Source of the DNA: Candidatus Kapaibacterium sp.
GTDB lineage: Bacteria; Bacteroidota; Ignavibacteria; Kapaibacteriales; UBA4661
Assembly: GCA_004292595.1 (NCBI GenBank)
Contig: RDXM01000092.1
Span: forward strand, 1-56,755
Length of the DNA: 56,755 bases
Direction of reading: 5' to 3'
Shown: positions 4,811-44,484 of the stretch, piece after piece
Numbering within the stretch: the first letter of the stretch is position 1
Layout of the letters: each line of letters opens with the position of its first letter
Notes under the pieces: generated by a model
What the model was told of the DNA's origin: nothing
What the model saw: the letters and a program-made list of their open reading frames with translations, nothing else
Databases searched by the model: none
Position numbers and translations under genes: made by a program

Positions 4811-7777
4811 TTATCGCACCACCACAAGCGGCGCAACCTGTGTTCTGCTCCGGCTTTTCACGCGCACGAAGTATGTGCCGCTTGCAAGAATTTCTGTGTT
4901 GAAAAGCTCTTGATTGCTTCCTTTGCGGCGCGGTACGTTCTCCAGCACCTGCGCGACGCTTTGCCCCAGCATATTCATTATTTCTATCGAAACACTTTCA
5001 TCGTTTGGCAAAGAATACGAGAGAAAGACGAGATTTTGTGCGGGATTAGGGAAAACACGCACTGCCTGAACTGTGTTTGTATCGCCGCGCAAGAGAGCTT
5101 TTACCTCTGCGATTGTTTGACCGATTGTGAGAGAAAAACTCACCGTCGTCGAAGAATTTTTTGCAAGCGCAATCGGACCCGCGCCAATAACTGCGCACAC
5201 ATCGCCCTCTTTGCGCGTCGGTACGATGCCGCTTGCCAGCGAGGTATATTTTGCCGAGCGTGTGAAAAAGTCTGGCGTTGGTGCGTTGGCGGTGGTGTCG
5301 AAAAAGACCATTGGGTAAAAATTAGTTTTCTCGCCCGAAAGCATTTGCAGCGCAATGACGGGCAAGCATGGAGATTGTCCCGTCGGAGAAGAATTTCCCA
5401 ACGCCCGCACAAAACCTGCCTTCAGCGTGTCATCCCAGAAAACCTCGTTTCTGCTTGCATCTGTCCCAATATCCCAATCGAAAAACATTCCGACAAAGAG
5501 CTTCGAGAAATCGCGCTCGGAAGTATTGGTAATCTTAAAACTATGCAGAAGCGAGTTTTGCTGAAGCGGATTGCGGTATTGAAACACTTGCTGCTCCACG
5601 CTTACGCCTGCATCGGTCGCGCCATTGCGGTCTTGGAAGCTGCTTTTGGCGATAAGCGAGGAGGAATCGGGTGCGGCAACAAGGCGCACGAGCGAGCTTG
5701 GCAGAAAAGAGCGCTCGCGCTCGAAAGAATTTATCCGCACTGACGTGGAAACACTGTCCGTGCCGCTTGCCACCATAATTCCGCCATCATAAATCAAACT
5801 TTCTGCGGGACAGGGCTTGTAGGCAACGCCGTCGCCTTGTGTGCGGCGCGGGTATTCGTTATAGCCCAAACGCCCCGTCGTTCCTACGCTTGCGACGATA
5901 TTATTCAGGCGCATCGTTGCATATGATTGATTGGCGACCAGCACAAAACCATCGCGCCCAAGCAACGCGCCGCTTTGCGAGCGAAAACTGAAGATGAGCG
6001 GAATCTCGAAATTCTCCAGCAATGTCCGTGTGAGGCGAAAGCTAAAGCTCGCCGCACCGCGCCGAATCTCGCTTGCAGCAAAGGTAGGAAGCTGTTTGCG
6101 GAGGTCGTCCCAAAAGGGCAGAAAACGACTCGTGTCGGGAATGGTGCTGCGCATTTCCACAATGCCACGTTCCACCGCGCCCAAACCCGCACGAATGCTA
6201 AGGTTTATCTGAATGCGCTCGCCAGATTCCAACACACCGTTATTATTTTCATCGCTGACGGTGTAGCTTTCGAGCGCGAGGGACGGTATCGTTGGCGATT
6301 GCACCGCTCGCAGCATATTCAAGCGTCCTGTGCCGAGCAAGCCCGCTAGTTCGCCCAGAAGCGCGTCGTTGGTGTCTGCGCTGGACTTCAGGAGTTGTGC
6401 GATGTGCGGAGCGGTCATGCGTGGATAGCGCAACTTCACGAGTGCCGCCGCCGCCGTTACTTGCGGAGCCGCCATTGATGTTCCGCTTAAAACGCCGTAG
6501 CGATTATCTACGAATGTGGCGTAAATACCGCTTCCGGGTGCGGAAATACCGACAGTGGGATAAAAATTGCTCGAAAAGCTGCGCGAATCGTCGCTGTTCA
6601 GCCAACCAACGCTCAGAATATCTGGATATGACGACGGAAACATAGGAATAAACCGACCGTCGTTGCCCGCGCTCACCACCACAAGTGCGCCCATACGCTG
6701 GGCAAGCGCGATGGTTTCCTGCTCGGCAAAGGAACGCGCCGACGCGCTGCCCCAACTGCAATTTATTACCTGTGCGCCCATTGTTGCGGCATAGAGAACG
6801 CCCCGTGCGCCGTTGTAAATGGTTTGACTGCCGCTATTTGTGCCGCATTTCACCAAGAGCAGACGAAAGCGCGAACTCAGCCCCACTGCGCCCGCTACGC
6901 CGATGTTGTTGTTGGTAACTGCGCCCAAAATCCCCGCAACGTGCGTTCCGTGCGAGTTTTCGGTGAGCAAGGGGTCGTTGTCTTCGGTAAAGCTGTCTGT
7001 GCCAGCAATATCCCAGCCGCGCCAATCGTCAATTTTGCCATTACGGTCGTCGTCCACGCCATTGGTGCGGCGGTCTCTACCCAAGGCATCCATGCCGCTT
7101 TCGCCCTGATTGATAAAAATAACATCGCGCAAATCTTCATGGTTGTAATCAAAGCCTGTATCTACAACGCCAACAATGATGCGGCTTGTATCGGATTGCG
7201 GCAATGCTGACTGCACTGCGCTCCATGCCTCGAAAGCCCGAATACGCGGTAAATGCTGCTGTGCGCCGACAAGCGGGTCGTTGCTTGTGCTGTCTGCTTT
7301 GCGCTGGGGAGCGCATTCGGCAATTTCAACGTCGGGCAAGGCTTCGAGCTTTGCCGCCAGCATTGGTGCAATGTCTGCGCGTTGCGCGTCCAGCAAATGC
7401 ACTTCGCACCAGCGTCCCATTCCGTGCAGATAGCGCGTGGAAAGCTCGTGCAGAACTGGATAAGGATTTTGTTCGCCAATGGTCTCAAATACGTGTTTTT
7501 GCAGGCGTTCTTCGGCAGCGCGGTAGCTGGCATCGTCCACGTAGGGCTTGGTGTCGTGCTTGCCCAAAACGCCAGAAAGCGCATCAATGCTGCCTTTGCG
7601 GGCGTGAGTGCGCCAGGCTTGCAGCATTGGAGATTGCTCACGGAATTTGACGTAGAGAATATGCGCATGGGCAAATGGTTGTTTCTGTGCGAGTATTGGC
7701 GGGACGTTCAGGTATTGTGCAATGGTGAATGCAAGGAGAAACACAAGAAAAATGCGGGATTTCAGGAAATACAACAT
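4811..7777 (-). CDS. Secreted subtilisin-like S8 protease with T9SS sorting domain
   Basis: About 988 residues. A signal peptide (FLVFLLAFTIAQY...PPILAQ) is followed by a propeptide-like region and an S8 catalytic domain. The catalytic triad is clear: Asp in VGVVDTGFDYNHED (about 206), His in NSHGTHVAGILGA (about 276) and Ser in LSGTSMAAPQVTAAAAL (about 434). A calcium-binding-like stretch DDDRNGKIDDW follows the Asp. The C-terminus (VRVFPNPAQNLVFLSYSLP ... GTYFVRVKS) is a type A T9SS domain, so the enzyme should be exported by type IX secretion and anchored or released at the surface. ATG 7777 is chosen over a TTG at 7822. It converges on the methyltransferase; the gap holds only the 14-bp repeats. 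Confidence 0.93.
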   Translation of the reverse strand: MLYFLKSRIFLVFLLAFTIAQYLNVPPILAQKQPFAHAHILYVKFREQSPMLQAWRTHARKGSIDALSGVLGKHDTKPYVDDASYRAAEERLQKHVFETIGEQNPYPVLHELSTRYLHGMGRWCEVHLLDAQRADIAPMLAAKLEALPDVEIAECAPQRKADSTSNDPLVGAQQHLPRIRAFEAWSAVQSALPQSDTSRIIVGVVDTGFDYNHEDLRDVIFINQGESGMDALGRDRRTNGVDDDRNGKIDDWRGWDIAGTDSFTEDNDPLLTENSHGTHVAGILGAVTNNNIGVAGAVGLSSRFRLLLVKCGTNSGSQTIYNGARGVLYAATMGAQVINCSWGSASARSFAEQETIALAQRMGALVVVSAGNDGRFIPMFPSSYPDILSVGWLNSDDSRSFSSNFYPTVGISAPGSGIYATFVDNRYGVLSGTSMAAPQVTAAAALVKLRYPRMTAPHIAQLLKSSADTNDALLGELAGLLGTGRLNMLRAVQSPTIPSLALESYTVSDENNNGVLESGERIQINLSIRAGLGAVERGIVEMRSTIPDTSRFLPFWDDLRKQLPTFAASEIRRGAASFSFRLTRTLLENFEIPLIFSFRSQSGALLGRDGFVLVANQSYATMRLNNIVASVGTTGRLGYNEYPRRTQGDGVAYKPCPAESLIYDGGIMVASGTDSVSTSVRINSFERERSFLPSSLVRLVAAPDSSSLIAKSSFQDRNGATDAGVSVEQQVFQYRNPLQQNSLLHSFKITNTSERDFSKLFVGMFFDWDIGTDASRNEVFWDDTLKAGFVRALGNSSPTGQSPCLPVIALQMLSGEKTNFYPMVFFDTTANAPTPDFFTRSAKYTSLASGIVPTRKEGDVCAVIGAGPIALAKNSSTTVSFSLTIGQTIAEVKALLRGDTNTVQAVRVFPNPAQNLVFLSYSLPNDESVSIEIMNMLGQSVAQVLENVPRRKGSNQELFNTEILASGTYFVRVKSRSRTQVAPLVVVR

Positions 7778-7833
7778 AAGTGCCGGGATGAAAAAAGTGA
7801 AGGCGCAACACGGTGATGACAATCTGATGAGGG

Positions 7834-29836: not shown

Positions 29837-31138
29837 ATGAGTGTTCAGGCATTTATCACAATCTTGCGTCAGGATAGCGATGCTGCCCAGCGTCGCCGTG
29901 CAGCTGAAGAACTGATTGCCGCAAATACCGTTACTACCGACATCATTGCCGCATTTGCGCAAGGCTTGAGCGATAGTGACAAGGGTGTGCGTGATATTTG
30001 TGCAATAGGTATTTTACGTTCTCCCGAGCAGCATCTTGCTGAGAAAGCACGTGCAGTTGCGCCGCTTATTACCCACGAGGATATTGAAATCCGCAATCTC
30101 GCGGGCGATGTACTGCTGAAGCTCGGTGCGCCCGCCGTTGATGCGCTTTTGCCATATTTGAACGATGCAAAAGAGGATAATCGTAAGTTTGCGTGTGATA
30201 TTATTGGGCTGAGTAATAACCCCGCTTCCATCCCGCACGTACGCGCCTTGCTCACCGATACAGACGACAACGTGCGCTGCGCTGCGATTGAAGCTCTTGG
30301 TTTTCTCAAGGCATCAGATTTTCTGGGCGATATTATTGCTATGTACGACGACGAAGCAGTAAAACCGTATGTTATTGGGGCAGTTGGGCATATCGGCGGT
30401 AAGTACGCGCAGGAATTTTTGCTGAATGCCTTGAATGAAGAGGATGAATTTACTCAAATAGCTGCAACCGACGCGCTTGCTGTTTGTGCCGATGAAATCG
30501 GAATTGCGCATAAACTGTTGCAGTCGCTTCCCGCAGCCAGCCCTGATGTACAGCCAGTTCTTCTACGAACAATTTACAGCATTGCCTTCCGTCTGCAAGT
30601 AGCGATTGAACTTCCAGCAAATTTACGCCCAGTGGCGCACCAAGCCTTGATGGATGATGACCGCGATACACGGATTTCGGGCTTGCTTGCCTTGGGTTCT
30701 GCGTACGAAGAAGAAGATGTAGCAGCACTCTTGTATGAAATCAAGAGTAATAATCCCGATACGCAACAACATATTTTATCTGTGACGCTGAATTCCTCTG
30801 CACCAGCAATGGTGCGTGTTTTCTTCGAGAGAGTTTTTGATTCTTTACTTGAGAATAATCTTCCTATAACCGAGTTTTTAGGCTTTTTAACGGCACTGCT
30901 AGCACACGCGCAAAGCGAAAATGCAGCAATCGCCACGCAGGCGGTTATGCGCGAATATGCAAGTGCCACGCAAGAACAACGCCGAGAAATACTAGAGTTT
31001 CTCCTTGCGGTAAACCGCGAAGCGGCACTACATCTTCTTTCTGACGAGCTTACTTCTTCTGAAGCTCATAGAATCGAAGATGCTCAATACTTTTTGAGCT
31101 ACTTCAATATCCGTGAACTTGCCCCCACTGAGCAATAA
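29837..31138 (+). CDS. HEAT-repeat protein in the che cluster
   Basis: 433 residues of repeating helical pairs: LRQDSDAAQRRRAAEELIAA, GVRDICAIGILRSPEQHLA, EIRNLAGDVLLKLGAPAVDAL, DNRKFACDIIGLSNNPASIP, DNVRCAAIEALGFLKASD and more. This is an alpha-solenoid of the HEAT or PBS-lyase type, a scaffold for protein binding. There is no signal peptide, so it is cytoplasmic. Its place between cheW and cheR suggests a chemotaxis accessory role, perhaps binding array components; this is inference from position only. Confidence 0.85.
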   Translation: MSVQAFITILRQDSDAAQRRRAAEELIAANTVTTDIIAAFAQGLSDSDKGVRDICAIGILRSPEQHLAEKARAVAPLITHEDIEIRNLAGDVLLKLGAPAVDALLPYLNDAKEDNRKFACDIIGLSNNPASIPHVRALLTDTDDNVRCAAIEALGFLKASDFLGDIIAMYDDEAVKPYVIGAVGHIGGKYAQEFLLNALNEEDEFTQIAATDALAVCADEIGIAHKLLQSLPAASPDVQPVLLRTIYSIAFRLQVAIELPANLRPVAHQALMDDDRDTRISGLLALGSAYEEEDVAALLYEIKSNNPDTQQHILSVTLNSSAPAMVRVFFERVFDSLLENNLPITEFLGFLTALLAHAQSENAAIATQAVMREYASATQEQRREILEFLLAVNREAALHLLSDELTSSEAHRIEDAQYFLSYFNIRELAPTEQ

Positions 31139-32476: not shown

Positions 32477-32854
32477 ATGATGAATAATCTTATGAAAAAG
32501 ACCATTCTCACTGTGGATGATTCGATGTCGGTGCGAAAGTTTATTGCGCTCGCATTGAAGTCTGGCGGGTATCGCGTTATATCTGCTGTGGACGGGATGG
32601 ACGCGCTAGAAATTTTACCAAAAGAAAAAGTTGATTTGGTCATTACCGACCTCAATATGCCCAATGTGGACGGCTTCGAGCTTGTACGCACTATCCGCGA
32701 GAATCCAATGTATGGTTCTTTACCAATCATCATTCTTTCCTCACTTGCCGATGCTCAATATATCGAACGTGGGATGCAAGCGGGAGCAAATTCGTATATC
32801 GTGAAGCCTTTTAACATGAAAAAAATTCAATACGAAGTATCAAAGTTTTTGTAG
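32477..32854 (+). CDS. cheY: CheY-type single-domain response regulator, copy 1
   Basis: 125 residues, receiver domain only. The acidic pair is in ILTVDDSMSVRK, the phospho-acceptor Asp in DLVITDLNMPNVDG, the Thr/Ser in IIILSSLAD and the Lys in SYIVKPFN. Carries the chemotaxis signal from CheA. A second ATG 15 bases downstream (MKKTIL) may be the real start. It shares only moderate similarity with the other CheY, so the two probably have different outputs. Confidence 0.92.
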   Translation: MMNNLMKKTILTVDDSMSVRKFIALALKSGGYRVISAVDGMDALEILPKEKVDLVITDLNMPNVDGFELVRTIRENPMYGSLPIIILSSLADAQYIERGMQAGANSYIVKPFNMKKIQYEVSKFL

Positions 32855-33334
32855 GCAAAGTGATTGGTACCATTACAACCAAACACACAGACTGTTCTTA
32901 TAGAAGTCGCTATTTGTCTAGTACGATTGTGGACAGTAATACAGTAAAGATGCTTCAACACTATCAGTATGATGCTCTGTGTGCTGTATTCACCATGAAC
33001 TTGTCGAAGGGCTTGGCTTGCTGTATCTACGCCTACAGCCTTAGTGCAGAGAGTATGCCTACGGCTGCGATGTGGTAAGTTTTTATGCCCAGAGCTTTGT
33101 TTTTGCAGAGATTTGCCGCAAAAGCGCAAAAAGTTTTTGATAAATTCTTTTCCCGCTCTTATATTACCGTACTATTTGCTTAATTTTTACCAAAAGGTAT
33201 GGAGTAAAATGGCAGCAAAGCAATATTCAAGACTTTTCTTGTTTTCTCGAAAGAGCTAGGAAAAGACGAGAAAAAAATGAAACTTACACTGAAAATTACC
33301 TCTATTAACCCCAATTTTTACGAGAAGAGTTGCT
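32855..33334. other. 480-base gene-free stretch between the two cheY genes
   Basis: No credible gene. It contains TGAACTTGTCGAAGG (about 32997-33011), which resembles the TGAGCTTGTCGAAGG dispersed sequence found in many bacterial genomes. Promoter elements for the second cheY are expected but not clear. Confidence 0.4.
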
Positions 33335-33703
33335 ATGAAATTTCTTGTTGTTGATGACTCGCCAACGATGCGTCGTATCGTAATTAACGCGCTTCACAGC
33401 TTCGGATACAATGATGTGGTAGAGGCGAGCGACGGGCAAGATGCGCTTGCAATTCTCTACACAGAGAAGATTGATTTCGTCATTACCGACTGGAATATGC
33501 CCAATATGAACGGTCTGGAACTTACCAAAGCTATCCGCAATGATGCAACATTTGGTAATCTGCCTGTTCTTATGGTAACGACACGCGGTATCAAAGAAGA
33601 CATCGTGCAGGCACTCCAAGCAAAAGTGAACAATTACATTGTGAAGCCCTTCACTCCAGCTGTCCTGAAAGAAAAAATTCAGGCAATCGTTCCGAGCGTG
33701 TAG
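33335..33703 (+). CDS. cheY: CheY-type single-domain response regulator, copy 2
   Basis: 122 residues, receiver only, and the closer of the two to classic CheY. FLVVDDSPTMRRIVIN carries the acidic pair, FVITDWNMPNMNGLELTKAI the acceptor Asp, LMVTTRG the Thr, and NNYIVKPFTP the Lys. GAGAAG lies about 10 bases before the ATG. It is the likely partner of the CheZ-like protein that follows. Confidence 0.95.
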   Translation: MKFLVVDDSPTMRRIVINALHSFGYNDVVEASDGQDALAILYTEKIDFVITDWNMPNMNGLELTKAIRNDATFGNLPVLMVTTRGIKEDIVQALQAKVNNYIVKPFTPAVLKEKIQAIVPSV

Positions 33704-34244
33704 AAGATGTGGTCTTGTTTGAATATCGCAAGGGTAATGTGTAGAAACAGTAGTGTGTAGAAACGGTGGTGTGTAGAAAATATTCCTACGCTTTATTCGC
33801 ACCGCGAGATGATAGTGGTAAAAGTGCATGAATGTTCGTTTTAACAAAAAAAACATACCTTTTGCGCACTTTTTCTCAAATCACATTGCATCAAACATCT
33901 TTGAAGTGCTTTTTTCCTCATGTATTCATAGATGTTGCACATACAACCAATGCACAATGTATAAGCGTATAAGCACAGAGAAATCAGTTGCTTGCGCTAT
34001 TATTTTTCTTTTATGTAAGGCTTGGTCAGTCTTGTTTGAACCGTATCGTATTCTATTTGCACCTCCGTGATAAATTGCGGAATGTTGCTCTGGAATTATG
34101 GTTAGTTTCATTACTTGTTTGTGTTACTGACCGTCTTGCTCTTTAAAGCTCTTCTCATGCGGTAGTCCTCTCCAAGATTGTGGGCTGCATCTCGCTTAAA
34201 TTCTGTTCTTCCATACTTCGCATTCATCCTCGGAGAAATCAACT
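33704..34244. other. 541-base gene-free stretch upstream of the cheZ-like gene
   Basis: Three imperfect 16-bp direct repeats beginning GTGTAGAAA lie at about 33739-33786. An ORF-like reading at 33828-34070 has no family signature and is not called. I see no clear terminator or structured RNA. Confidence 0.4.
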
Positions 34245-35378
34245 ATGCGCGTAGGTGAAATAAATGAAATGTTGCACAAAACCGAAGAGCTTAAGGCACT
34301 TTTTGTATTTGGTCAGCGCGTGATTCCTTTCTTGGAAGAAGTATTTATGTTTATCCGCGAGGTTACACCTCTCTTGGAGAATATCAATGCGTCTATCGAA
34401 GAAAACTTGTCGAAAATGCCGAAAGCCGCACAACAGCTTTCCAGCGTAACAAAGGCTACTGAACTCGCCACAACGGAAATTCTTGATACACTTGATGGTT
34501 TATCGTACAAATCCGATGTCATCAGCTCAAATCTAAAGCAATTGCTGCAAATCCAGCGTCTGAATCGTACTGAGCAGGAAAAAGTGATTGAAGCGGTGAA
34601 TAAATTGCAAGATGAAGAAAATACCGAGACCGAGAATAAAGAATCCGTTTATTCGCGGCTTATTGACGTTATTCGGAAAATTGAACACCGCGATGGTGGC
34701 TCTTCTTCTGCCTACCAAGTAGATACTATCAAGTCTGCTCTCAACGTTCTCCAAAAGCCAGAAGTCTCGGAAGAGTTAGTAAATAACTCCGAGAAGCTCT
34801 TAGAAAGCATTCGGATGGACTCCACGCAGATTATGATGTCGCTTCAGGTGCAAGATATTACATCGCAACAGCTTGCGGCAGTAAATAGTCTCTTGCAAAC
34901 AGTGCAAAGCCGACTCGGTGAGATTATGATTCACTTCCGCAATACGGAAATTGGTGAGTTGATTACGACTTCTGGTCGTCGCCCTGTAAGTACAAGCGAT
35001 GACAGCGCAACGCACGTTGCAACGCTTCACCGCGCCATTGCCTACGACCACGATGTCGGTTCGGCATTGAACAAAGACCCTGAACGTCAAAATGCTGTTG
35101 ATTCTATTTTAGCATCTTTTCAGCAAGGCGATACAAGTGGTGGCGGTGTAAGTACGGGTGTGAAGCCTGGCAGCGACTCCGAAGAAGTTGATATTGATGC
35201 ACTCTTCGGTAATGCCGCTATCAATAACAAACCATCTGCTTTGCCCGTTCCTCCTCCAGCAAGCCACGAGACCTCATCCCAAAATGATATTGATGCACTC
35301 TTTGGCAGCAGTAATAGTGGTGGTGGAAGCGGAACGCCATCACAAGACGATATTGATGCATTGTTTAACAGCAAATAA
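34245..35378 (+). CDS. CheZ-like protein with three C-terminal FliM-like CheY-binding motifs
   Basis: 377 residues. The N-terminal two thirds are long alpha-helices with the CheZ-like segments VTKATELATTEILDTLDGL (68-86) and QVQDITSQQLAAVNSLLQ (201-218). The D204-x3-Q208 spacing matches the Asp/Gln pair of CheZ that dephosphorylates CheY-P. The C-terminal part is a flexible linker with three copies of a short motif: EEVDIDALF (313-321), SQNDIDALF (345-353) and SQDDIDALF (366-374). These resemble the SQxEIDALL peptide of FliM that binds CheY-P. GGAG precedes the ATG. It is inferred to be a CheY-P phosphatase that can hold several CheY molecules; phosphatase activity is not proven. Confidence 0.72.
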   Translation: MRVGEINEMLHKTEELKALFVFGQRVIPFLEEVFMFIREVTPLLENINASIEENLSKMPKAAQQLSSVTKATELATTEILDTLDGLSYKSDVISSNLKQLLQIQRLNRTEQEKVIEAVNKLQDEENTETENKESVYSRLIDVIRKIEHRDGGSSSAYQVDTIKSALNVLQKPEVSEELVNNSEKLLESIRMDSTQIMMSLQVQDITSQQLAAVNSLLQTVQSRLGEIMIHFRNTEIGELITTSGRRPVSTSDDSATHVATLHRAIAYDHDVGSALNKDPERQNAVDSILASFQQGDTSGGGVSTGVKPGSDSEEVDIDALFGNAAINNKPSALPVPPPASHETSSQNDIDALFGSSNSGGGSGTPSQDDIDALFNSK

Positions 35379-35466: not shown

Positions 35467-37518
35467 ATGAGCGGCGGTTTCGATAACGAAATGAAAGAAC
35501 TTCTTGATAGTTTTCTCATTGAAACACAAGAAATTCTGGATACCCTCGACCAAGACCTCATGCAATTGGAGTCCCAAGCCGAGAATTTTGACCTTCTCAA
35601 TTCTGTCTTTAGAAGTTTTCACACCATCAAGGGCACATCTTCGTTCATGGGCTTTGACCAGATAACGGAGATTACGCACCATGCTGAGGATATTCTTAAT
35701 AAACTTCGCAAGGCCGAGATACGTGTTAATTCTGAAATTGTAGATGCTCTTTTGGAAGTATATGATTGGCTAAAGACCCTTCTGAAGAAGGCACAAGCTG
35801 GTGATACTGAGCGTGTAGATTACTCCAAAACAATGGAGAAGCTCCACAAAATCAGCCATCCTGAAGCGGCAACAGAGGAAGTCAGTGTAGGAGTTCCTGC
35901 CGTAGGTGCTGCACCGCCACCTGCTGCGCAAGCTCCCTCAGTGGTGGATAATCTTCTTGCCGACCCGTCTTTTGGCAAAAAGGGTGATTATTTTACCGAT
36001 GATGAGCTTTCTATGATTGCCGCTGCCTTCGATGAAATCAATCGCACGATGACGGGCGGAGGAAGTGCCGCTGCCACTCCAGCCCCAGCAGCCCCAGCAC
36101 CAGTATCGCAAGCTCCCGTCACCACTCCAGCCCCAGCAGCCCCAGCACCAGTATCGCAAGTTCCCGTTACCACTCCAGCCCCAGCACTCAAACCTGTAGA
36201 GGCGGCGAAATCAGCAACTCCAACCGCTATTAAAACGGCAGAACCACCGAAAAAATCTATTGCAAAAGAGCTTACGAGCGATGACAAAGCAAAAGCTGCT
36301 GTTGCAACAGAAACGACGATTCGGGTGGATGTGAATCGTTTGGAAACCTTGATGGACTTATCTGGCGAATTGGTTCTTGGGCGCAATCGTTTAGCGCAGG
36401 TTACGCAAGAACTCATGCAACGATATGAAAATCACGACTTTTTGCGCGAACTTCAAGAAACAAGCTCTGCGATTGACTTTATTACAACAGAGCTTCAATC
36501 GGCAATCATGAAAACACGGATGGTGCCGATTTCTAAAATCTTCCAAAAAGCACCGCGCATTGTTCGTGATTTGTCGAAAGAATTTGGTAAAGATATCGAA
36601 CTCGTCTTGCGGGGCGAGGAAACAGAATTAGACAGAGGTATTATTGAAGAATTGAATGACCCTCTTGTCCATATGATTCGTAATTCCTGCGACCACGGCA
36701 TTGAAGGTCCTGTTGAGCGCGAAAAATCTGGTAAGCCTACCAAAGGCACACTCATTCTGGATGCGCAGCACGAAGGTAACCACATCGTCGTAAACATCAT
36801 TGATGATGGAAAAGGCATCAATCCTGAGTTCTTGAAAATGAAAGCACTCGAAAAGGGCTTGATTACCCAAGAACAAATCCAGACCATGACCGACCGCGAC
36901 GCATACAGCCTCATTTTCATGCCTGGCTTCTCAACGGCAGAAAAGGTTACCAGTGTGTCGGGACGAGGCGTTGGGATGGACGTTGTGCGCACAAACATCC
37001 AAAAGCTCAAAGGCATTATTGAGGTAGATTCTAAGCTGGGTGCTGGTACAACCTTTACCATTAAATTGCCGCTGACCTTGGCGATTATTCAAGGTTTGCT
37101 TGTGCGTGTGCAGTCGGAAATTTACGCTCTGCCGCTCAGTGCCGTTGTTGAGGTTGTCAATACAGATTTGAACCAAATCTACAGCGTTAATCAAAACGAA
37201 GTCATGCGGATTCGGAATCAAGTCTTTCCGCTTATTCGTATGGACAAAGTGCTGAAAACACCAAGTAAAGACGATACGCTTGAGAACCGCTATGTGGTGG
37301 TTGTCGGCTTGGCAGATAAGCGTTTAGGCTTGGTGGTGGATGAACTTCTTGGACAAAAAGAAATTGTTATTAAGTCTCTCGGTGAATACTTGGGTCATAT
37401 TCGCGGTATGTCTGGCTCGACGATTTTGGGCGATGGGCGCGTAATTATGATTCTCGACATTGAAGAGCTTATCCAGGAAGCACATTCAGTAGCTGCATCA
37501 GTGTGGCAGCAGCAATAG
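35467..37518 (+). CDS. cheA: CheA chemotaxis histidine kinase
   Basis: 683 residues. P1 HPt domain with phospho-His 52 in RSFHTIKGTSSFMGF, then a long proline/alanine-rich linker in which no clear P2 domain is seen, P3 dimerisation (ETLMDLSGELVLGRNRL), the P4 ATPase with N box MIRNSCDHGIE, G1 IIDDGKGIN and G2 SGRGVGMDVVRTNI, and a C-terminal CheW-like P5 (GLLVRVQSEIYALPLSAV). The linker holds a 48-bp tandem duplication giving repeated TPAPAAPAPVSQ. It phosphorylates CheY and CheB. It follows the cheZ-like gene by 88 bases. Confidence 0.97.
   Translation: MSGGFDNEMKELLDSFLIETQEILDTLDQDLMQLESQAENFDLLNSVFRSFHTIKGTSSFMGFDQITEITHHAEDILNKLRKAEIRVNSEIVDALLEVYDWLKTLLKKAQAGDTERVDYSKTMEKLHKISHPEAATEEVSVGVPAVGAAPPPAAQAPSVVDNLLADPSFGKKGDYFTDDELSMIAAAFDEINRTMTGGGSAAATPAPAAPAPVSQAPVTTPAPAAPAPVSQVPVTTPAPALKPVEAAKSATPTAIKTAEPPKKSIAKELTSDDKAKAAVATETTIRVDVNRLETLMDLSGELVLGRNRLAQVTQELMQRYENHDFLRELQETSSAIDFITTELQSAIMKTRMVPISKIFQKAPRIVRDLSKEFGKDIELVLRGEETELDRGIIEELNDPLVHMIRNSCDHGIEGPVEREKSGKPTKGTLILDAQHEGNHIVVNIIDDGKGINPEFLKMKALEKGLITQEQIQTMTDRDAYSLIFMPGFSTAEKVTSVSGRGVGMDVVRTNIQKLKGIIEVDSKLGAGTTFTIKLPLTLAIIQGLLVRVQSEIYALPLSAVVEVVNTDLNQIYSVNQNEVMRIRNQVFPLIRMDKVLKTPSKDDTLENRYVVVVGLADKRLGLVVDELLGQKEIVIKSLGEYLGHIRGMSGSTILGDGRVIMILDIEELIQEAHSVAASVWQQQ
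36073..36187 (+). repeat. 48-bp tandem repeat inside cheA
   Basis: Two near-identical 48-bp units (36073-36120, 36121-36168) and a partial third. They encode the Pro/Ala-rich linker repeat TPAPAAPAPVSQ(A/V)PVT. The length is a multiple of 3, so copy number can change without a frameshift. Confidence 0.9.
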
Positions 37519-39232: not shown

Positions 39233-39332
39233 GTGTTTTACACGGAATAGCTCTTTTGTGTTTTACACGGAATAGCTCTTTTGTGTTTTACACGGAATAG
39301 CTCTTTTGTGTTTTACACGGAATAGCTCTAAG
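39233..39332. repeat. Four 25-bp tandem repeats in a transposase remnant
   Basis: GTGTTTTACACGGAATAGCT plus CTTTT is repeated four times without change up to the last unit (39233, 39258, 39283, 39308). Each unit contains the small palindrome GTGTTTTACAC. The units cover the C-terminal codons of the transposase fragment, and 25 is not a multiple of 3, so each added copy changes the reading frame. Confidence 0.9.
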
Positions 39333-39631
39333 GTGTTAAAACTCATCAAACAGACGTAGGCATGAGCGCGAATCGTCGGTATGGTTCGGGCTTGGCAGGT
39401 TTCAAAGCCAAACTCCGATTTGAGCAGTGTGATACACTCCTCAATCATCCACCGTTTGCGATAGGCTTTCTTGACCTCCTTTGGCTTCCACTGAAGCACC
39501 GAGGTCGCAAAAAACTCTTTGCCGTCTTGAACAATCAGGGCGTGAATATCACCAGCAAGCGTGGCAATGACTAAGGTGTACCCCAAGCATTTATTCACTC
39601 CGCACCTCACAACAGTGTAACAATACAACAT
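39263..39631 (-). pseudogene. DDE transposase C-terminal fragment (IS4-like)
   Basis: The reading contains TLAGDIHALIVQDGKEFFAT, KKAYRKRWMIEECITLLKSE and RAHAYVCLMSFNTLEL. The YRKRWMIEE stretch is the glutamate-containing end of a DDE domain as in IS4/ISAs1-type transposases. The N-terminal catalytic part is absent, so it is a decayed remnant. The 3' end runs into the 25-bp tandem repeats and gives an aberrant tail. The left limit of homology is uncertain; neither terminal repeat was identified. Confidence 0.6.
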
Positions 39632-39904: not shown

Positions 39905-41725
39905 TCAAAACGTCAAAACTGCTCCCACAGCAGCAAAGATGCCGCGTTCCTGATACCCGTCCCACAAAAAGACTGCTTGATTCAGCAGATTTGTTCCTCG
40001 CACATATACGCTGAACTGAGGCGTGAAGCGGTATTCCGCCCCAAAACGCACATCCACAAAAAGCGGCAAGGTCGCAGAAGGCTCATAGATACTCGCTTTG
40101 CGCTCACCAAGCAGAACGGCACTGAGATTCGTAGAAAAGCCCGAAAACCACGCCCGACGATACTCCACCGCCGCTTCGATGGGTGCGAGATACGGCACAA
40201 CGCCGATTGGTCTGGAGCTACTCAGCACAAATCCACTTGCGCTGAGAACAACATTCGCACGAGCAGAAACGGTATTGTTGGTATCTGGCAAGAACGAAAA
40301 CTCCCCAAAAACCCTATGAATGCTGGTGTTTCCAAATACAACAGCAATTTCCCCAATGTTGGACTCATTTCGACCAAAAAGAAGTGCGTTGGTATTCATT
40401 TCTGAGCGTCCGCCGAGCGTGAAACTTAGGTATTTGCTTGGCTGCAAGCGCAGGGAAAGCTGCGCATCGTATAAGGTTTGTGTGGCGAGAGGATTGGGAA
40501 AAAGCGCGTAATTCGGCACAATGCGCGGACGGGAGAATCCATCTAAAAACGGCGCGTAGGGATTTTCTTTCACAATGCGCCCAAGTGTCTGCAAACGCAC
40601 ACCAGAGAAGGCTTCCAGCATCACCGATACGCCGTAGGCAGGATGCAGAGCGGCATTCAGCGAAACGTGAGGTGTGATGCGGGCGGCAGGGTTTGTTCTA
40701 AAGGAAGCATCGTTCCAAATATGTGCGCCGCCGCGTAGTTGCATTTCAAAGGTTTTTTGTTCGCTGCGAAATTCCAGCACCAAACTGGGTGTCAGCAAAA
40801 ACGGCTGCTGCGGTGCGGCTTCCACGCTATCCTGCCGACCACTAATGAAGACCGATTCCGCCTGTATCTGTCCACCGATTGCCCATTCGCCCAGCAGTTT
40901 TTTACCGAGAAGATTGCCCTTTGCAGCAAGATTATCCGCCGTTGTGGGAAGATTGGTGATTTCTCGTGTGCGGATATTCGCAAATTCTCCATGCACACCC
41001 ATTTCATAGCCCCAGCCCTCGAACACGCCTGAAGTCTGAACACCAGCATCTATGCCAAGTTGCGCACGGCGAATTGCTTCCGCGCTCACATTGCTTGCTC
41101 CAAAGAACGAGTATTCACGCCGCCGCGCTCGCACGTATGTATCGGTGCGGCTTCCAGCAAAAAAAAGATACTGTTCAGGTGCGAGATAGCTTGAGTGGAT
41201 GCGTGCAAAAAGGTCGGAAAAATCAGCATTCGGAAGGTGTCCGTTGCTAAGAGTGCCGCCCAGAGCAGCATTGATATCGAAATTGCCAAGAACAGCTCTG
41301 TATCCCGCTTCGAGGCTTGGCGTAAGAAACATTCCAAATTCAGCTGTCAAAAAACCATTCCGTTCTTGGGACGGCAAGACGAGTGTTGGTGAGCTTGCGA
41401 AGGGCAACAGCCCGAAGGAGAGTTTATCAAGCGGATTGAAGTTTTGTAATTGCTGCGCAGAAAGTTTGCGCGATGGCTTTGGTGTTTGCTTTGCTCCGCC
41501 TGGTACGTCGAGCGATTCCACGCCCGTTATCACAAATTCTGGTAATTCTAGAGGTTGTTCTACTTTTGCTTTTTCTGGTTTGCTACTGGATTTCTCCAGA
41601 GGTTTTTCGCTTGGTTTCTCTGGTATTTGTGCGATGCTTTCATGCTGAAAAAAGCCGCAGAAAAGGCACAGAGTAAAAAGCACTGTGGCTGTTCTTCCAC
41701 GAAGAAAAACAGCCACAGAGCGCAT
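39905..41725 (-). CDS. TonB-dependent-receptor-like outer-membrane beta-barrel protein
   Basis: About 606 residues. A signal peptide (TVLFTLCLFCGFFQHESIAQ) is followed by a Pro/Lys/Ser-rich periplasmic segment (PEKPSEKPLEKSS), a short ELPEFVITGVESLDVPGG stretch, and then alternating amphipathic strands up to a C-terminal aromatic residue (GIFAAVGAVLTF), as in TonB-receptor barrels (RFTPQFSVYVRGTNLLNQAVFL is typical of the last strands). A plug domain is not clear, so it may be a plug-less barrel. ATG 41725 is chosen; the 167-residue upstream reading only shadows the next gene. It lies 68 bases downstream of the GH2-like gene in the same direction, suggesting an operon. Confidence 0.78.
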   Translation of the reverse strand: MRSVAVFLRGRTATVLFTLCLFCGFFQHESIAQIPEKPSEKPLEKSSSKPEKAKVEQPLELPEFVITGVESLDVPGGAKQTPKPSRKLSAQQLQNFNPLDKLSFGLLPFASSPTLVLPSQERNGFLTAEFGMFLTPSLEAGYRAVLGNFDINAALGGTLSNGHLPNADFSDLFARIHSSYLAPEQYLFFAGSRTDTYVRARRREYSFFGASNVSAEAIRRAQLGIDAGVQTSGVFEGWGYEMGVHGEFANIRTREITNLPTTADNLAAKGNLLGKKLLGEWAIGGQIQAESVFISGRQDSVEAAPQQPFLLTPSLVLEFRSEQKTFEMQLRGGAHIWNDASFRTNPAARITPHVSLNAALHPAYGVSVMLEAFSGVRLQTLGRIVKENPYAPFLDGFSRPRIVPNYALFPNPLATQTLYDAQLSLRLQPSKYLSFTLGGRSEMNTNALLFGRNESNIGEIAVVFGNTSIHRVFGEFSFLPDTNNTVSARANVVLSASGFVLSSSRPIGVVPYLAPIEAAVEYRRAWFSGFSTNLSAVLLGERKASIYEPSATLPLFVDVRFGAEYRFTPQFSVYVRGTNLLNQAVFLWDGYQERGIFAAVGAVLTF

Positions 41726-41793
41726 ACAATCAAGAAGTGTGCAATGGTAATGATGAGCGAGAACAGCCATAATACCTTGAAAACGTATCAAAA

Positions 41794-44484
41794 TTATCGG
41801 TACAAGACCGTAAAGAAATACTGCGTAAAGGCAATGCTCGAGTGCGCGGAATCGTAGTAGAAAACGACCGCACCAATAAATATCGCAAGTACAGCAATAC
41901 CAATAGCGTAAGTATGCCATGCGCGAACATCGTAAATAACCGATGTCCCTCGCAGCATTCGATAAAAGCACCACAACAACACATATGCAATAAGAATGAG
42001 CGAACTCATTGTGTAGAGGTCGGTGGAAAGCAGTCGGTACAAGCCAGCGGTCATCACCAGCAAGAACACAAGCGGTAGAAACGCCCACACCGCAATAACA
42101 AAAGCATCGCCAATGAAAATACGCGACTTCACCAGCAATGAGCCTATACGAAGAAGCAGCGTGAGAACACACAAAACACCAAGAAAAGCAACCGTTGCCG
42201 CCGCGAACGATGCCCACGGAATCCAAATAATCTGGTTCAAAAATTCCTTGATGAAATTCGATAACACAAGATGCGTAAGAACATAATCGAACAAATAGCT
42301 GAAACGGAGGAAATACAGCATAGAAGAAATAATCAAGCCCATGGTTGCGGAAAGCAAGAGCGCGAGCGTAAATGTTCCGGCATTCGACAAAATGCGTTGG
42401 TCGCGGATGTCGGAATAGAAGTTGTACGGACGCAAGAGCGACCGCAAGACATCTTCGCGGAAACGCCGCGAGGTATTCATCAAGACAAAAAATATCAGTA
42501 TCAGAGCAATGCTGACAATCGTGTAAAATGACGGTATTTCTGGCTTGTGGCTGCCTGCCTCCAGCGCGGGTTCTTTTTCGTCATTGAAAAGGGCTTTCAC
42601 CATATGGTAGGGCAAGCGTAAGTTACGATTGTGAGCGACAAGACCGCTTGTCGCAATATACTGTGCTTCATTATTGGTGATGAGTATTGGTCGCTCGGCT
42701 TCGTAATCATTGAACGAGCCAATGACGACGCTGCTCGAAATTTTATATTCCTGCAGAATACGAAAGCGCAAACGGATGTAGCGGGCTTGCGCCTCAACCG
42801 AGAGCGGGTCGGAGTACCCCCGATGATTGCTCGGCTGAATAAAACTCTCAAAGCTAAACACGCTTGGTTTCTTGGGATTGAGTGCAACTAAACGCTCGGC
42901 TTCAGCGCGAAAGGTTTGTCCATTTTCGCTCTTCATCGCAAAAACAATGAAATTGTAGCCGTCCACACTCAGACTGGATGTTTGACTGCGCACGGTTTTG
43001 TAGAGCAGTTTTGCTGATAACGGGCGAATTGTTTCCCGAACTTTTTGAGAATAGTCCGCCAGTTCAGGCGTTGCCTCAGCAGCTTCTTCGACAAGACCCC
43101 ATGCGATAACGGCTGGACTATTTTCATAGTTTTGAATGAGGGATTTGGCAATGGTTTGCGCGGTAACGATATAATTATCATTACCCAAAATAGAAACGGG
43201 GGTGCCACGTGCGGCAACATCAAGCATCATCATAATGCCATACTTATCGCACAAATACACCAAATATGGATGCGGTGAGGAATGGCGAACACGAATCACG
43301 TTTGCGCCAACTGCTTTTATGGCAACAACGTCTTTTTCGTATTCGCTCATGTTGATTGTCATGCCGCCTTTTTCGCTGTTTTCGATGTAATCTATCGCTT
43401 TAATGCTCATGGGCTGACCATTGAGAAGAAAGCCCATTTTATTATCTATGGGAGCTTCCTGGAGGCTGTACAAGCCGATATTGGTAACATAATTGTCAAT
43501 TATTTCGCCACCCTTGCGCAAGGTAACGGTAAGCGTGTACAGATTTGGTGCCGCCGGCGACCAAAGACGTGGCGCGGTAACGATAAAATTCAGTTTTACT
43601 TGTGCATTCCGATTTGCCTGTACTTCGAGCGTTGTGGGAGTTGCGCGAGCCACAACCGTCGTAGAGTCATCGGCAAGGCGCAATTCCGCACTTACTTCCA
43701 CATTTGCTTTTGGGATTTGCACCATTCGTGGGGCTTGCAAAGAATCTTCACGAATAAACTGGTATAACTTCCCTGGTACTAATGATGCCGTAACGACAGT
43801 ATTTGCGGTATTCAGGTCGTTATTGGGAAATTGTGTTTTTACGTCCACGCTTCCTAAGGACACATCGGGCGTTCCGACAAGGAATAACTCGCGGACAATT
43901 CCGCCAAAACCTTTAGCTTCCTGAGGCGTAGCACGAAATGGAATCGTACTACTTGCATCCAGCTTGTTATTTACTACGATTTCGAGCGTGTTATTGCCAC
44001 TGACCAAATAGGTATCGGGAATGCGCACTTGAAAGGGCAGAGTGCCGCCGATATGGCTCAAAAGATATTGCCCATTGATGTAGATTTCTGTGCGATAATG
44101 GCTGCCCAGCGAGAGAAGCTGCCACTCGTAGCGTTGTATAAGCAACTCATCAATCACAAACGTCCGACGATAGCGAACTTCTCCTTGCATTGATTCCGAG
44201 TATGGCAAGGTTACGCGCTGCCAGTCCCCATCAATAGAAGAAGAGCGTTGCCATTCGCCCGCAAGTGCTTGGACGAAGCGTGTGGTCGAGTGCGTAAAGG
44301 TTTTGTATTGGTCGGGTGTCATGGCGACATATTGCGGTGCTTGTGCTAGAGCGTCCAAAGCCAGAGCATATGAAAGAACAAAGCTCATTGCCACAGCGTA
44401 TAGGCTTGCAGCGAACAAAGAAAACAAGCGTGTCCGCAAGGAAAAAAGCGGGTTTGAGACAGAATATTTCACAAAAAATTTCAT
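41794..44484 (-). CDS. GH2-like glycosidase ectodomain fused to a multi-pass membrane domain
   Basis: 896 residues. A signal peptide or anchor (LFSLFAASLYAVAMSFVLS) is followed by a GH2-type sugar-binding sandwich (GEVRYRRTFVIDELLIQRYE, TEIYINGQYLLSHIGG, NNTLEIVVNNKLDA), an Ig-like domain (LWSPAAPNLYTLTVTLRKGG) and a TIM barrel (KDVVAIKAVGANVIRVRHSS, YENSPAVIAWGLVEEAAEATP). In active GH2 enzymes the acid/base lies in a W-(S/G)-(L/I)-x-N-E motif; here it reads WGLVEE, so the Asn is missing. From about residue 650 there are six or so membrane helices (SFYTIVSIALILIFFVLMN ... IGIAVLAIFIGAVVFYY). This fusion is unusual. It may be a degenerate glycan-binding membrane protein. Confidence 0.72.
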   Translation of the reverse strand: MKFFVKYSVSNPLFSLRTRLFSLFAASLYAVAMSFVLSYALALDALAQAPQYVAMTPDQYKTFTHSTTRFVQALAGEWQRSSSIDGDWQRVTLPYSESMQGEVRYRRTFVIDELLIQRYEWQLLSLGSHYRTEIYINGQYLLSHIGGTLPFQVRIPDTYLVSGNNTLEIVVNNKLDASSTIPFRATPQEAKGFGGIVRELFLVGTPDVSLGSVDVKTQFPNNDLNTANTVVTASLVPGKLYQFIREDSLQAPRMVQIPKANVEVSAELRLADDSTTVVARATPTTLEVQANRNAQVKLNFIVTAPRLWSPAAPNLYTLTVTLRKGGEIIDNYVTNIGLYSLQEAPIDNKMGFLLNGQPMSIKAIDYIENSEKGGMTINMSEYEKDVVAIKAVGANVIRVRHSSPHPYLVYLCDKYGIMMMLDVAARGTPVSILGNDNYIVTAQTIAKSLIQNYENSPAVIAWGLVEEAAEATPELADYSQKVRETIRPLSAKLLYKTVRSQTSSLSVDGYNFIVFAMKSENGQTFRAEAERLVALNPKKPSVFSFESFIQPSNHRGYSDPLSVEAQARYIRLRFRILQEYKISSSVVIGSFNDYEAERPILITNNEAQYIATSGLVAHNRNLRLPYHMVKALFNDEKEPALEAGSHKPEIPSFYTIVSIALILIFFVLMNTSRRFREDVLRSLLRPYNFYSDIRDQRILSNAGTFTLALLLSATMGLIISSMLYFLRFSYLFDYVLTHLVLSNFIKEFLNQIIWIPWASFAAATVAFLGVLCVLTLLLRIGSLLVKSRIFIGDAFVIAVWAFLPLVFLLVMTAGLYRLLSTDLYTMSSLILIAYVLLWCFYRMLRGTSVIYDVRAWHTYAIGIAVLAIFIGAVVFYYDSAHSSIAFTQYFFTVLYR

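Follow-up and report, generated by a model that had tools for sequence, protein, structure and literature searches.

In the genome of Candidatus Kapaibacterium sp., a gene of the chemotaxis cluster probably encodes an active CheZ-family phosphatase of phosphorylated CheY (CheY-P), in which a helical body with the Asp/Gln pair would be combined with a disordered tail carrying several peptides for the multivalent capture of CheY. We consider this the likely reading of the window, by which we mean the whole 56,755-nucleotide stretch of DNA that was analysed, and CheY-P binding, phosphatase activity, dimerisation and a benefit from multivalency are all predictions from sequence. The open reading frame itself was borne out exactly as the preliminary description gave it. 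The gene and the parts of its product are as follows:

34245..35378, + strand: cheZ, encoding a CheZ-family protein of 377 amino acids with a FliM-like peptide array (match to PF04344)
34251..34943, + strand: helical body, residues 3-233 (AlphaFold2 model from a 47-row alignment)
34854..34868, + strand: D204-x3-Q208 (DITSQ), invariant in alignments and within the Pfam CheZ match
35085..35120, + strand: inner motif RQNAVDSILASF, residues 281-292 (alignment with relatives; helix 279-293 in the model)
35181..35207, + strand: FliM-like motif 1, EEVDIDALF, residues 313-321, the most divergent copy (0.72 identity)
35277..35303, + strand: FliM-like motif 2, SQNDIDALF, residues 345-353 (0.86 identity; helix 348-354 in the model)
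35340..35366, + strand: FliM-like motif 3, SQDDIDALF, residues 366-374, the last copy (1.00 identity; helix 367-374 in the model)

The CheZ-like identity proposed in the preliminary description is supported by the invariance of the Asp/Gln pair in the alignments and by a match to Pfam CheZ (PF04344) that exceeds the curated cut-off by a narrow margin (32.9 against 30.7 bits) and covers residues 175-235, ending at profile position 161. The choice of start codon is consistent with the relatives in a 22-row alignment. The NCBIfam CheZ equivalogs scored far below their cut-offs (NF008368, 15.4 against 257 bits; NF041271, 10.3 against 350), indicating a distant CheZ and not a member of that equivalog. 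A six-frame search with PF04344 gave no match in the eight genomes of the window's genus and missed the window gene as well, which reflects a failure of sensitivity, since a profile made from the alignment of relatives recovered the gene in all eight. Searched alone against the sequences of solved structures, the window protein matched no CheZ at E values up to 10, and the CheZ profile of relatives reached 1kmi_Z at E 0.1 only. The AlphaFold2 model (mean pLDDT 72.1, pTM 0.44, 47 sequences) matched the fold of the solved CheZ 1kmi_Z with a Z score of 10.3 (rank 11, 164 residues, rmsd 9.1), to which unrelated helical bundles were comparable, and Foldseek gave no match with an E value of 0.001 or less; helical or coiled-coil proteins made up the 50 rows listed, with no CheZ among them. 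Moreover, the FliM domain PF02154 was absent from the five Pfam families that matched the protein at E up to 1, so that the window protein has the peptide in common with FliM and nothing more.

In the model, the body consists of a long helix (3-125) followed by shorter helices and a second long helix (173-233), and it is within this last helix, in the stretch LQVQDITSQQ, that D204 and Q208 are found. We take these residues to be the counterparts of the catalytic D143 and Q147 of CheZ in E. coli numbering. The Asp/Gln spacing that had been pointed out from the sequence was invariant in all rows of the 22-row (A1) and 47-row (A2) alignments. Between the body and the inner motif lies a further segment, residues 258-274 (35016..35066, + strand), containing LHRAIAYD (LHRxIAxD), in which H262 and D268 are invariant in 22 rows and which shows 0.82 identity in the window's family.

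The inner motif, whose Q282 is invariant in both the 22-row and the 47-row alignments, is the putative counterpart of the C-terminal CheY-binding helix of classical CheZ, a placement made by alignment with relatives only, as the window's Pfam match ends before it. Among the 27 loci of the long type (L004-L030), the Pfam CheZ match extends to profile position 195 or beyond in 16 and breaks off before that position in the remaining 11. Fifteen of the 16 extended matches stop at the inner motif, as RQxxVDxL or a close form, and the other (L007) stops just short of it, while in L001-L003 the end of the profile falls on the classical terminus, SQEQVDALLESLGF or similar. As the profile ends at the inner motif in the relatives, the FliM-like array is an addition that lies beyond the ordinary C-terminus of CheZ. 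This inner, fourth motif goes beyond the preliminary description, as do the varying number of copies among relatives and the failure to find FliM and FlhA in the genus.

The core of the FliM type, SQx[DE]IDxL[LF], is complete in motifs 2 and 3, and motif 1 has the same core without SQ. The linkers of the array are rich in Ser, Gly and Pro, with AlphaFold2 confidence below 50 at residues 295-318, 322-345 and 354-363, and the model forms a short helix at motif 2 and another at motif 3 but none at motif 1. DIDALF was absent from all 200,000 shuffled versions of the tail, and a looser pattern appeared once in 607 of 200,000 shuffles, twice in one and three times in none, so that the three FliM-like motifs on a Ser/Gly/Pro linker described beforehand withstood this control. 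In addition, the codon pattern of DIDALF occurs three times in the 4.6-Mb genome of the organism, always within cheZ, and the reversed pattern does not occur. The FliM N-termini of relatives begin with SQxEIDxLL or a close form at all 20 loci read (from 56 genomes with FliM). The comparison with FliM was also well chosen in the preliminary description, although the window's genus yielded no FliM of its own.

Conservation within the family was assessed on nine proteins (the window and L085-L092), which were taken, from their equal protein lengths, as the genus plus its nearest family relative. All nine retain three motifs, separated by linkers of 14-33 and 7-13 residues. Mean pairwise identity, computed on seven of the nine after leaving out the near copies L085 and L089, rose from 0.72 for motif 1 to 0.86 for motif 2 and 1.00 for motif 3, and it was 0.14, 0.18 and 0.27 for the linkers. 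Synonymous differences within the motifs were many (pS 0.70-0.82), with pN/pS values of 0.256, 0.080 and 0.023 for motifs 1, 2 and 3, respectively; as the choice of these blocks relied on a pattern under which six of the nine residues are fixed or narrowed, which lowers pN, the alignment-based identities are the safer figures. The contrast between conserved motifs and diverging linkers supports the CheY-binding role first suggested for the tail peptides, which we regard as likely. The same gradient, with the last copy most conserved and motif 1 least, would be expected if only the terminal peptide mattered, the extra copies having arisen in the disordered tail by tandem duplication with almost no selective consequence and no multivalent function. 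We find this explanation possible but rather unlikely, as all nine proteins keep three copies while their linkers (in seven of the nine) have diverged down to 14-27% identity.

The distribution of the array among relatives bears on the same question. A PF04344 search of 99 genomes from the window's own genus, family and order detected CheZ in 28 of them, at 30 loci, and the open frames extended from these matches had tails with one to seven motifs. The A1 profile (22 rows) comprised the window and 21 of these 30 loci, leaving out the classical CheZ loci L001-L003 and six others that were divergent, near copies or contained unread bases (L006, L010, L021, L023, L025, and L030), and it detected CheZ in 36 of the 99 genomes, including all eight of the window's genus. 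When named genomes were scanned with A1, 108 places were confirmed, of which the best 80 were used, corresponding to 79 distinct loci; the DNA patterns of the scan derived from the protein body, but the ranking took in the complete window protein with its tail, and the best 80 of 108 may for that reason favour tail-bearing relatives. By their titles, these 80 belonged mostly to Ignavibacteria, Kapaibacterium/Kapabacteria or Bacteroidetes MAGs, along with Rhodothermus, Roseithermus, Calditrichota, Kryptoniota, and Melioribacteraceae. The A2 alignment (47 rows) included the window and 46 of the 79 loci, and the census and tree the window and 78 of them, L093 being dropped for having no ORF that fits the catalytic pattern.

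All 79 proteins scored in the census (window plus 78 loci from the best 80 of 108 places) carry at least one FliM-like peptide: one copy in 49, two in 13, three in 12, four in four, and seven in one, although one locus contains unread bases and its motif count may be low. The family-wide search for the tail proposed at the outset therefore found the peptide throughout these proteins, and repeated two to seven times in 30 of them. It is absent from three loci of the order with a classical CheZ ending (L001-L003). Likewise, the idea that no such protein had been described needs to be divided: the arrangement is not peculiar to the window protein, as relatives have one to seven copies, and the repeated array does appear undescribed in the open literature that was searched.

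On the tree of protein bodies, the state of three or more copies requires about five changes, at least two of which are forced by well-supported branches, and the two-copy state requires 11, indicating that copy number drifts. Copies 1 and 3 of L132 are identical at 18/18 core and 30/30 flank bases and copies 1 and 2 of L120 at 18/18 core and 26/30 flank bases, and the arrays of L120, L132, and L133 look like recent tandem duplications; L132 and L127, both of the Rhodothermus type, have four motif copies. The recent look of the L132 and L120 arrays and the frequent changes of copy number are again what near-neutral duplication around a single functional terminal peptide would leave behind, and the count for three or more copies, about five changes with at least two of them forced, speaks against it.

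Two response regulators are encoded upstream of cheZ, as the preliminary description had noted of its surroundings:

32477..32854, + strand: cheY1, the second single-domain response regulator (PF00072, 103.8 bits)
33335..33703, + strand: cheY2, close to E. coli CheY and the probable partner (CheY chains of solved structures matched at about 128 bits)

CheY2 aligned nearly end to end with the CheY chains of solved structures and has the same residues as E. coli CheY at D12, D13, D57, T87, Y106, and K109 (E. coli numbering). Across 77 loci, T87 was found in 76, Y106 in 75, K109 in 76 and K119 in 76, counted by fixed offset, so that an insertion could give a false exception. Among seven family orthologs, mean identity reached 98.5% for CheY2 and 89.6% for CheY1. 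Counting the window, 77 of the 79 loci (best 80 of 108 places) have a gene of the cheY2 type upstream of cheZ, and 69 have both cheY1 and cheY2 there. The near-frozen sequence of CheY2, together with the presence of FliM in only one of ten genomes of the family, points to another partner of CheY2; the CheZ tail, which CheY2 is predicted to bind, is among the candidate partners that may constrain its sequence. The intergenic stretches flanking cheY2 are long (32855-33334, 480 bases; 33704-34244, 541 bases), and some relatives, L088 and L091 for example, have a shorter one between cheY2 and cheZ. An Rfam scan of the window gave no match at the gathering score.

FliM binds CheY-P through its EIDALL motif (PMC9126983), and CheZ and FliM use a common face of CheY (PMC3774744). 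In the mechanism that we propose, the tail peptides, one of them ancestral (281-292) and three FliM-like (313-321, 345-353, 366-374), would dock on CheY at its alpha4-beta5-alpha5 face. Should the protein dimerise as E. coli CheZ does, a dimer would offer eight potential sites. Phosphorylated CheY2 would be caught by any of the peptides and then held close to the active site, and such capture would both speed the removal of CheY-P and buffer free CheY-P. The CheY-P "sink" suggested beforehand is one reading among several.

The distribution of flagellar genes provides further context. FliM was found in 56 of the 99 genomes of relatives, in one of ten genomes of the window's family and in none of the eight genomes of its genus, where FlhA was not found either (0/8). 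The family genome with FliM (G008, 70% complete) has no such CheZ. Over the 99 genomes, 25 have this CheZ and FliM together, 11 this CheZ without FliM, 31 FliM without this CheZ, and 32 neither. Loss of flagella as the cause of multivalency was rejected, as the genome with the seven-copy protein (G024) has FliM; the array, which occurs alongside FliM in other genomes, is not a product of flagellar loss and was kept where FliM was not found. The joint occurrence of CheZ and FliM in 25 of 99 genomes, and the similarity of the array motifs to the FliM peptide, would also suit a tail that acts mainly as a decoy or buffer, whose peptides compete with the effector for CheY-P and set a threshold or delay, dephosphorylation being secondary. 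We judge this unlikely, because the motifs are kept in a genus in which none of eight genomes showed a FliM competitor, and because the invariance of D204 and Q208 argues for enzyme activity.

The output of CheY in the window's genus is probably not a flagellum. In the eight genomes of the genus, PilT of type IV pili never exceeded the cut-off, with a single weak match under it, whereas all eight have SprA, of the type IX system, over the cut-off. GldL gave no match over the cut-off in 99 genomes (one weak match below) and GldM none in the eight of the genus, but the GldL model was silent in control genomes too and the GldM model in every genome including controls, so the motor may still exist. 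A CheY-like domain, that of PorX, acts on the type IX secretion motor in Bacteroidota (PMC10951265), and the type IX secretion or gliding apparatus is our best remaining, weakly supported guess for the output in this genus. Searching the eight genomes for the codon pattern of Q-x-[DE]-I-D-x-L-[LF] gave 27 matches, 21 in cheZ and six outside (reversed pattern, one). A rhomboid-type protein, the sole recurring one of those six, was discarded as a hidden effector, since it recurs in 2/8 genomes only and its motif lies within a DUF6576 tail.

The remaining members of the chemotaxis cluster are:

start 27500: sigma-54 response regulator
start 29184: cheW
start 31160: cheR
35467..37518, + strand: cheA, with HPt, dimerisation, ATPase, and CheW domains (Pfam)
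35992..36042, + strand: conserved, helix-like CheA linker motif FTDDELSMIAAAFDEIN, CheA residues 176-192 (pattern)
start 37801: cheB, after cheA

A gene for a HEAT-repeat protein (29837-31138) is located between cheW and cheR. An HPt-bearing cheA starts at most 1,500 bases after cheZ in 76 of 79 loci (best 80 of 108 places), and the gene order of the cheY/cheZ/cheA cluster is old. No P2 domain was detected by Pfam in the window CheA; P2 is missing from about half of CheA proteins and many P2 domains escape simple profile scans (PMC10542144), for which reason the absence of P2 here is likely rather than shown. In a pattern search, motifs of the FTDDELSMIAAAFDEIN type were present in at least 42 of the 76 CheA proteins adjoining such cheZ genes (best 80 of 108 places), a lower bound because the linker of L142, FSNDELDLIQAAFDELN, escapes the pattern. 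The 20 loci L143-L149 and L151-L163, from Melioribacteraceae, Ignavibacteriales and other Bacteroidota or from unplaced MAGs, gave no match. The motif is repeated three times in L117 and twice in L119 and L120, where CheZ has three to four motifs, and the seven-copy CheZ locus L116 has a single CheA motif, which indicates that the two counts are not simply linked. The linker motif may serve CheY or CheZ as a substitute place to dock.

These features of CheA are compatible with a tail that binds some other partner, such as CheA, CheW or an array protein, and positions CheZ in the cell: CheA has no P2 by Pfam and a conserved linker motif of its own, this motif is repeated in three loci that have three to four CheZ motifs, and in E. 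coli CheZ is localised by binding to CheA (PMC7750401). Nevertheless, we consider such a role quite improbable, given that the tail motif is of the FliM type, for which the known partner is CheY-P (PMC9126983).

Elsewhere in the window, a DDE transposase fragment (39263-39631; PF01609, 27.9 bits against a cut-off of 23) is located downstream of cheB, followed by a large ORF (39905-42226), for which Pfam gave nothing at E up to 0.01, and a glycosyl hydrolase family 2 protein (41794-44484) with a weak Yip1 match below the cut-off. The product of 4811-7822 is a subtilase whose tail bears a type IX sorting domain.

Beyond the active phosphatase with a multivalent tail that we favour, a broader and speculative scenario, on balance doubtful, would describe a tunable multivalent CheY-P trap in which evolution adjusts signal lifetime through the copy number (one to seven), and in which some lineages have corresponding repeats of the CheA linker motif standing in for P2. 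In a genus taken to lack flagella, the FliM peptide would have outlived FliM by way of CheZ, with CheY2 driving another motor, perhaps that of type IX gliding. In any event, these proteins offer a natural series of one to seven putative CheY-docking peptides on one type of phosphatase, and swaps of natural tails could test the effect of multivalency on signal lifetime. They also provide a handle on chemosensory pathways in bacteria seemingly without flagella.

Several known systems resemble parts of this arrangement. PorX and GldL/PorL of Bacteroidota offer a precedent for a phosphorylated receiver acting on a non-flagellar motor (PMC10951265), although PorX is a CheY-PglZ fusion, and a link of the CheY described here to such a motor would be hypothetical. 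The P2 domain of CheA also binds CheY on the signalling complex and is duplicated in Borreliales (PMC10542144), but it is a folded domain on the kinase. FliM shares the short motif SQx[DE]IDxL[LF] (EIDALL in FliM), which it carries as an N-terminal peptide next to its PF02154 domain, while the window protein has C-terminal copies on a protein of the CheZ type. A further parallel is classical CheZ (PF04344), as in E. coli and other Proteobacteria, in which a helical Asp/Gln body is followed by a flexible linker and a C-terminal CheY-binding peptide (PMC3774744), a single such peptide being an established CheZ feature (Guhaniyogi 2008, cited in PMC3774744). The window protein differs from classical CheZ in running 85 residues beyond the inner motif and carrying three FliM-like peptides there (one to seven in relatives), and the loci L001-L003, which come from the same taxonomic order as the window, have the classical CheZ ending with none of these peptides. 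We found no description of a CheZ with several FliM-like peptides in the open literature, which is weak evidence because subscription journals were mostly outside its scope. What looks new beside the systems above is the repetition of FliM-type peptides in an array, together with the variation in their number and their occurrence where FliM was not found.
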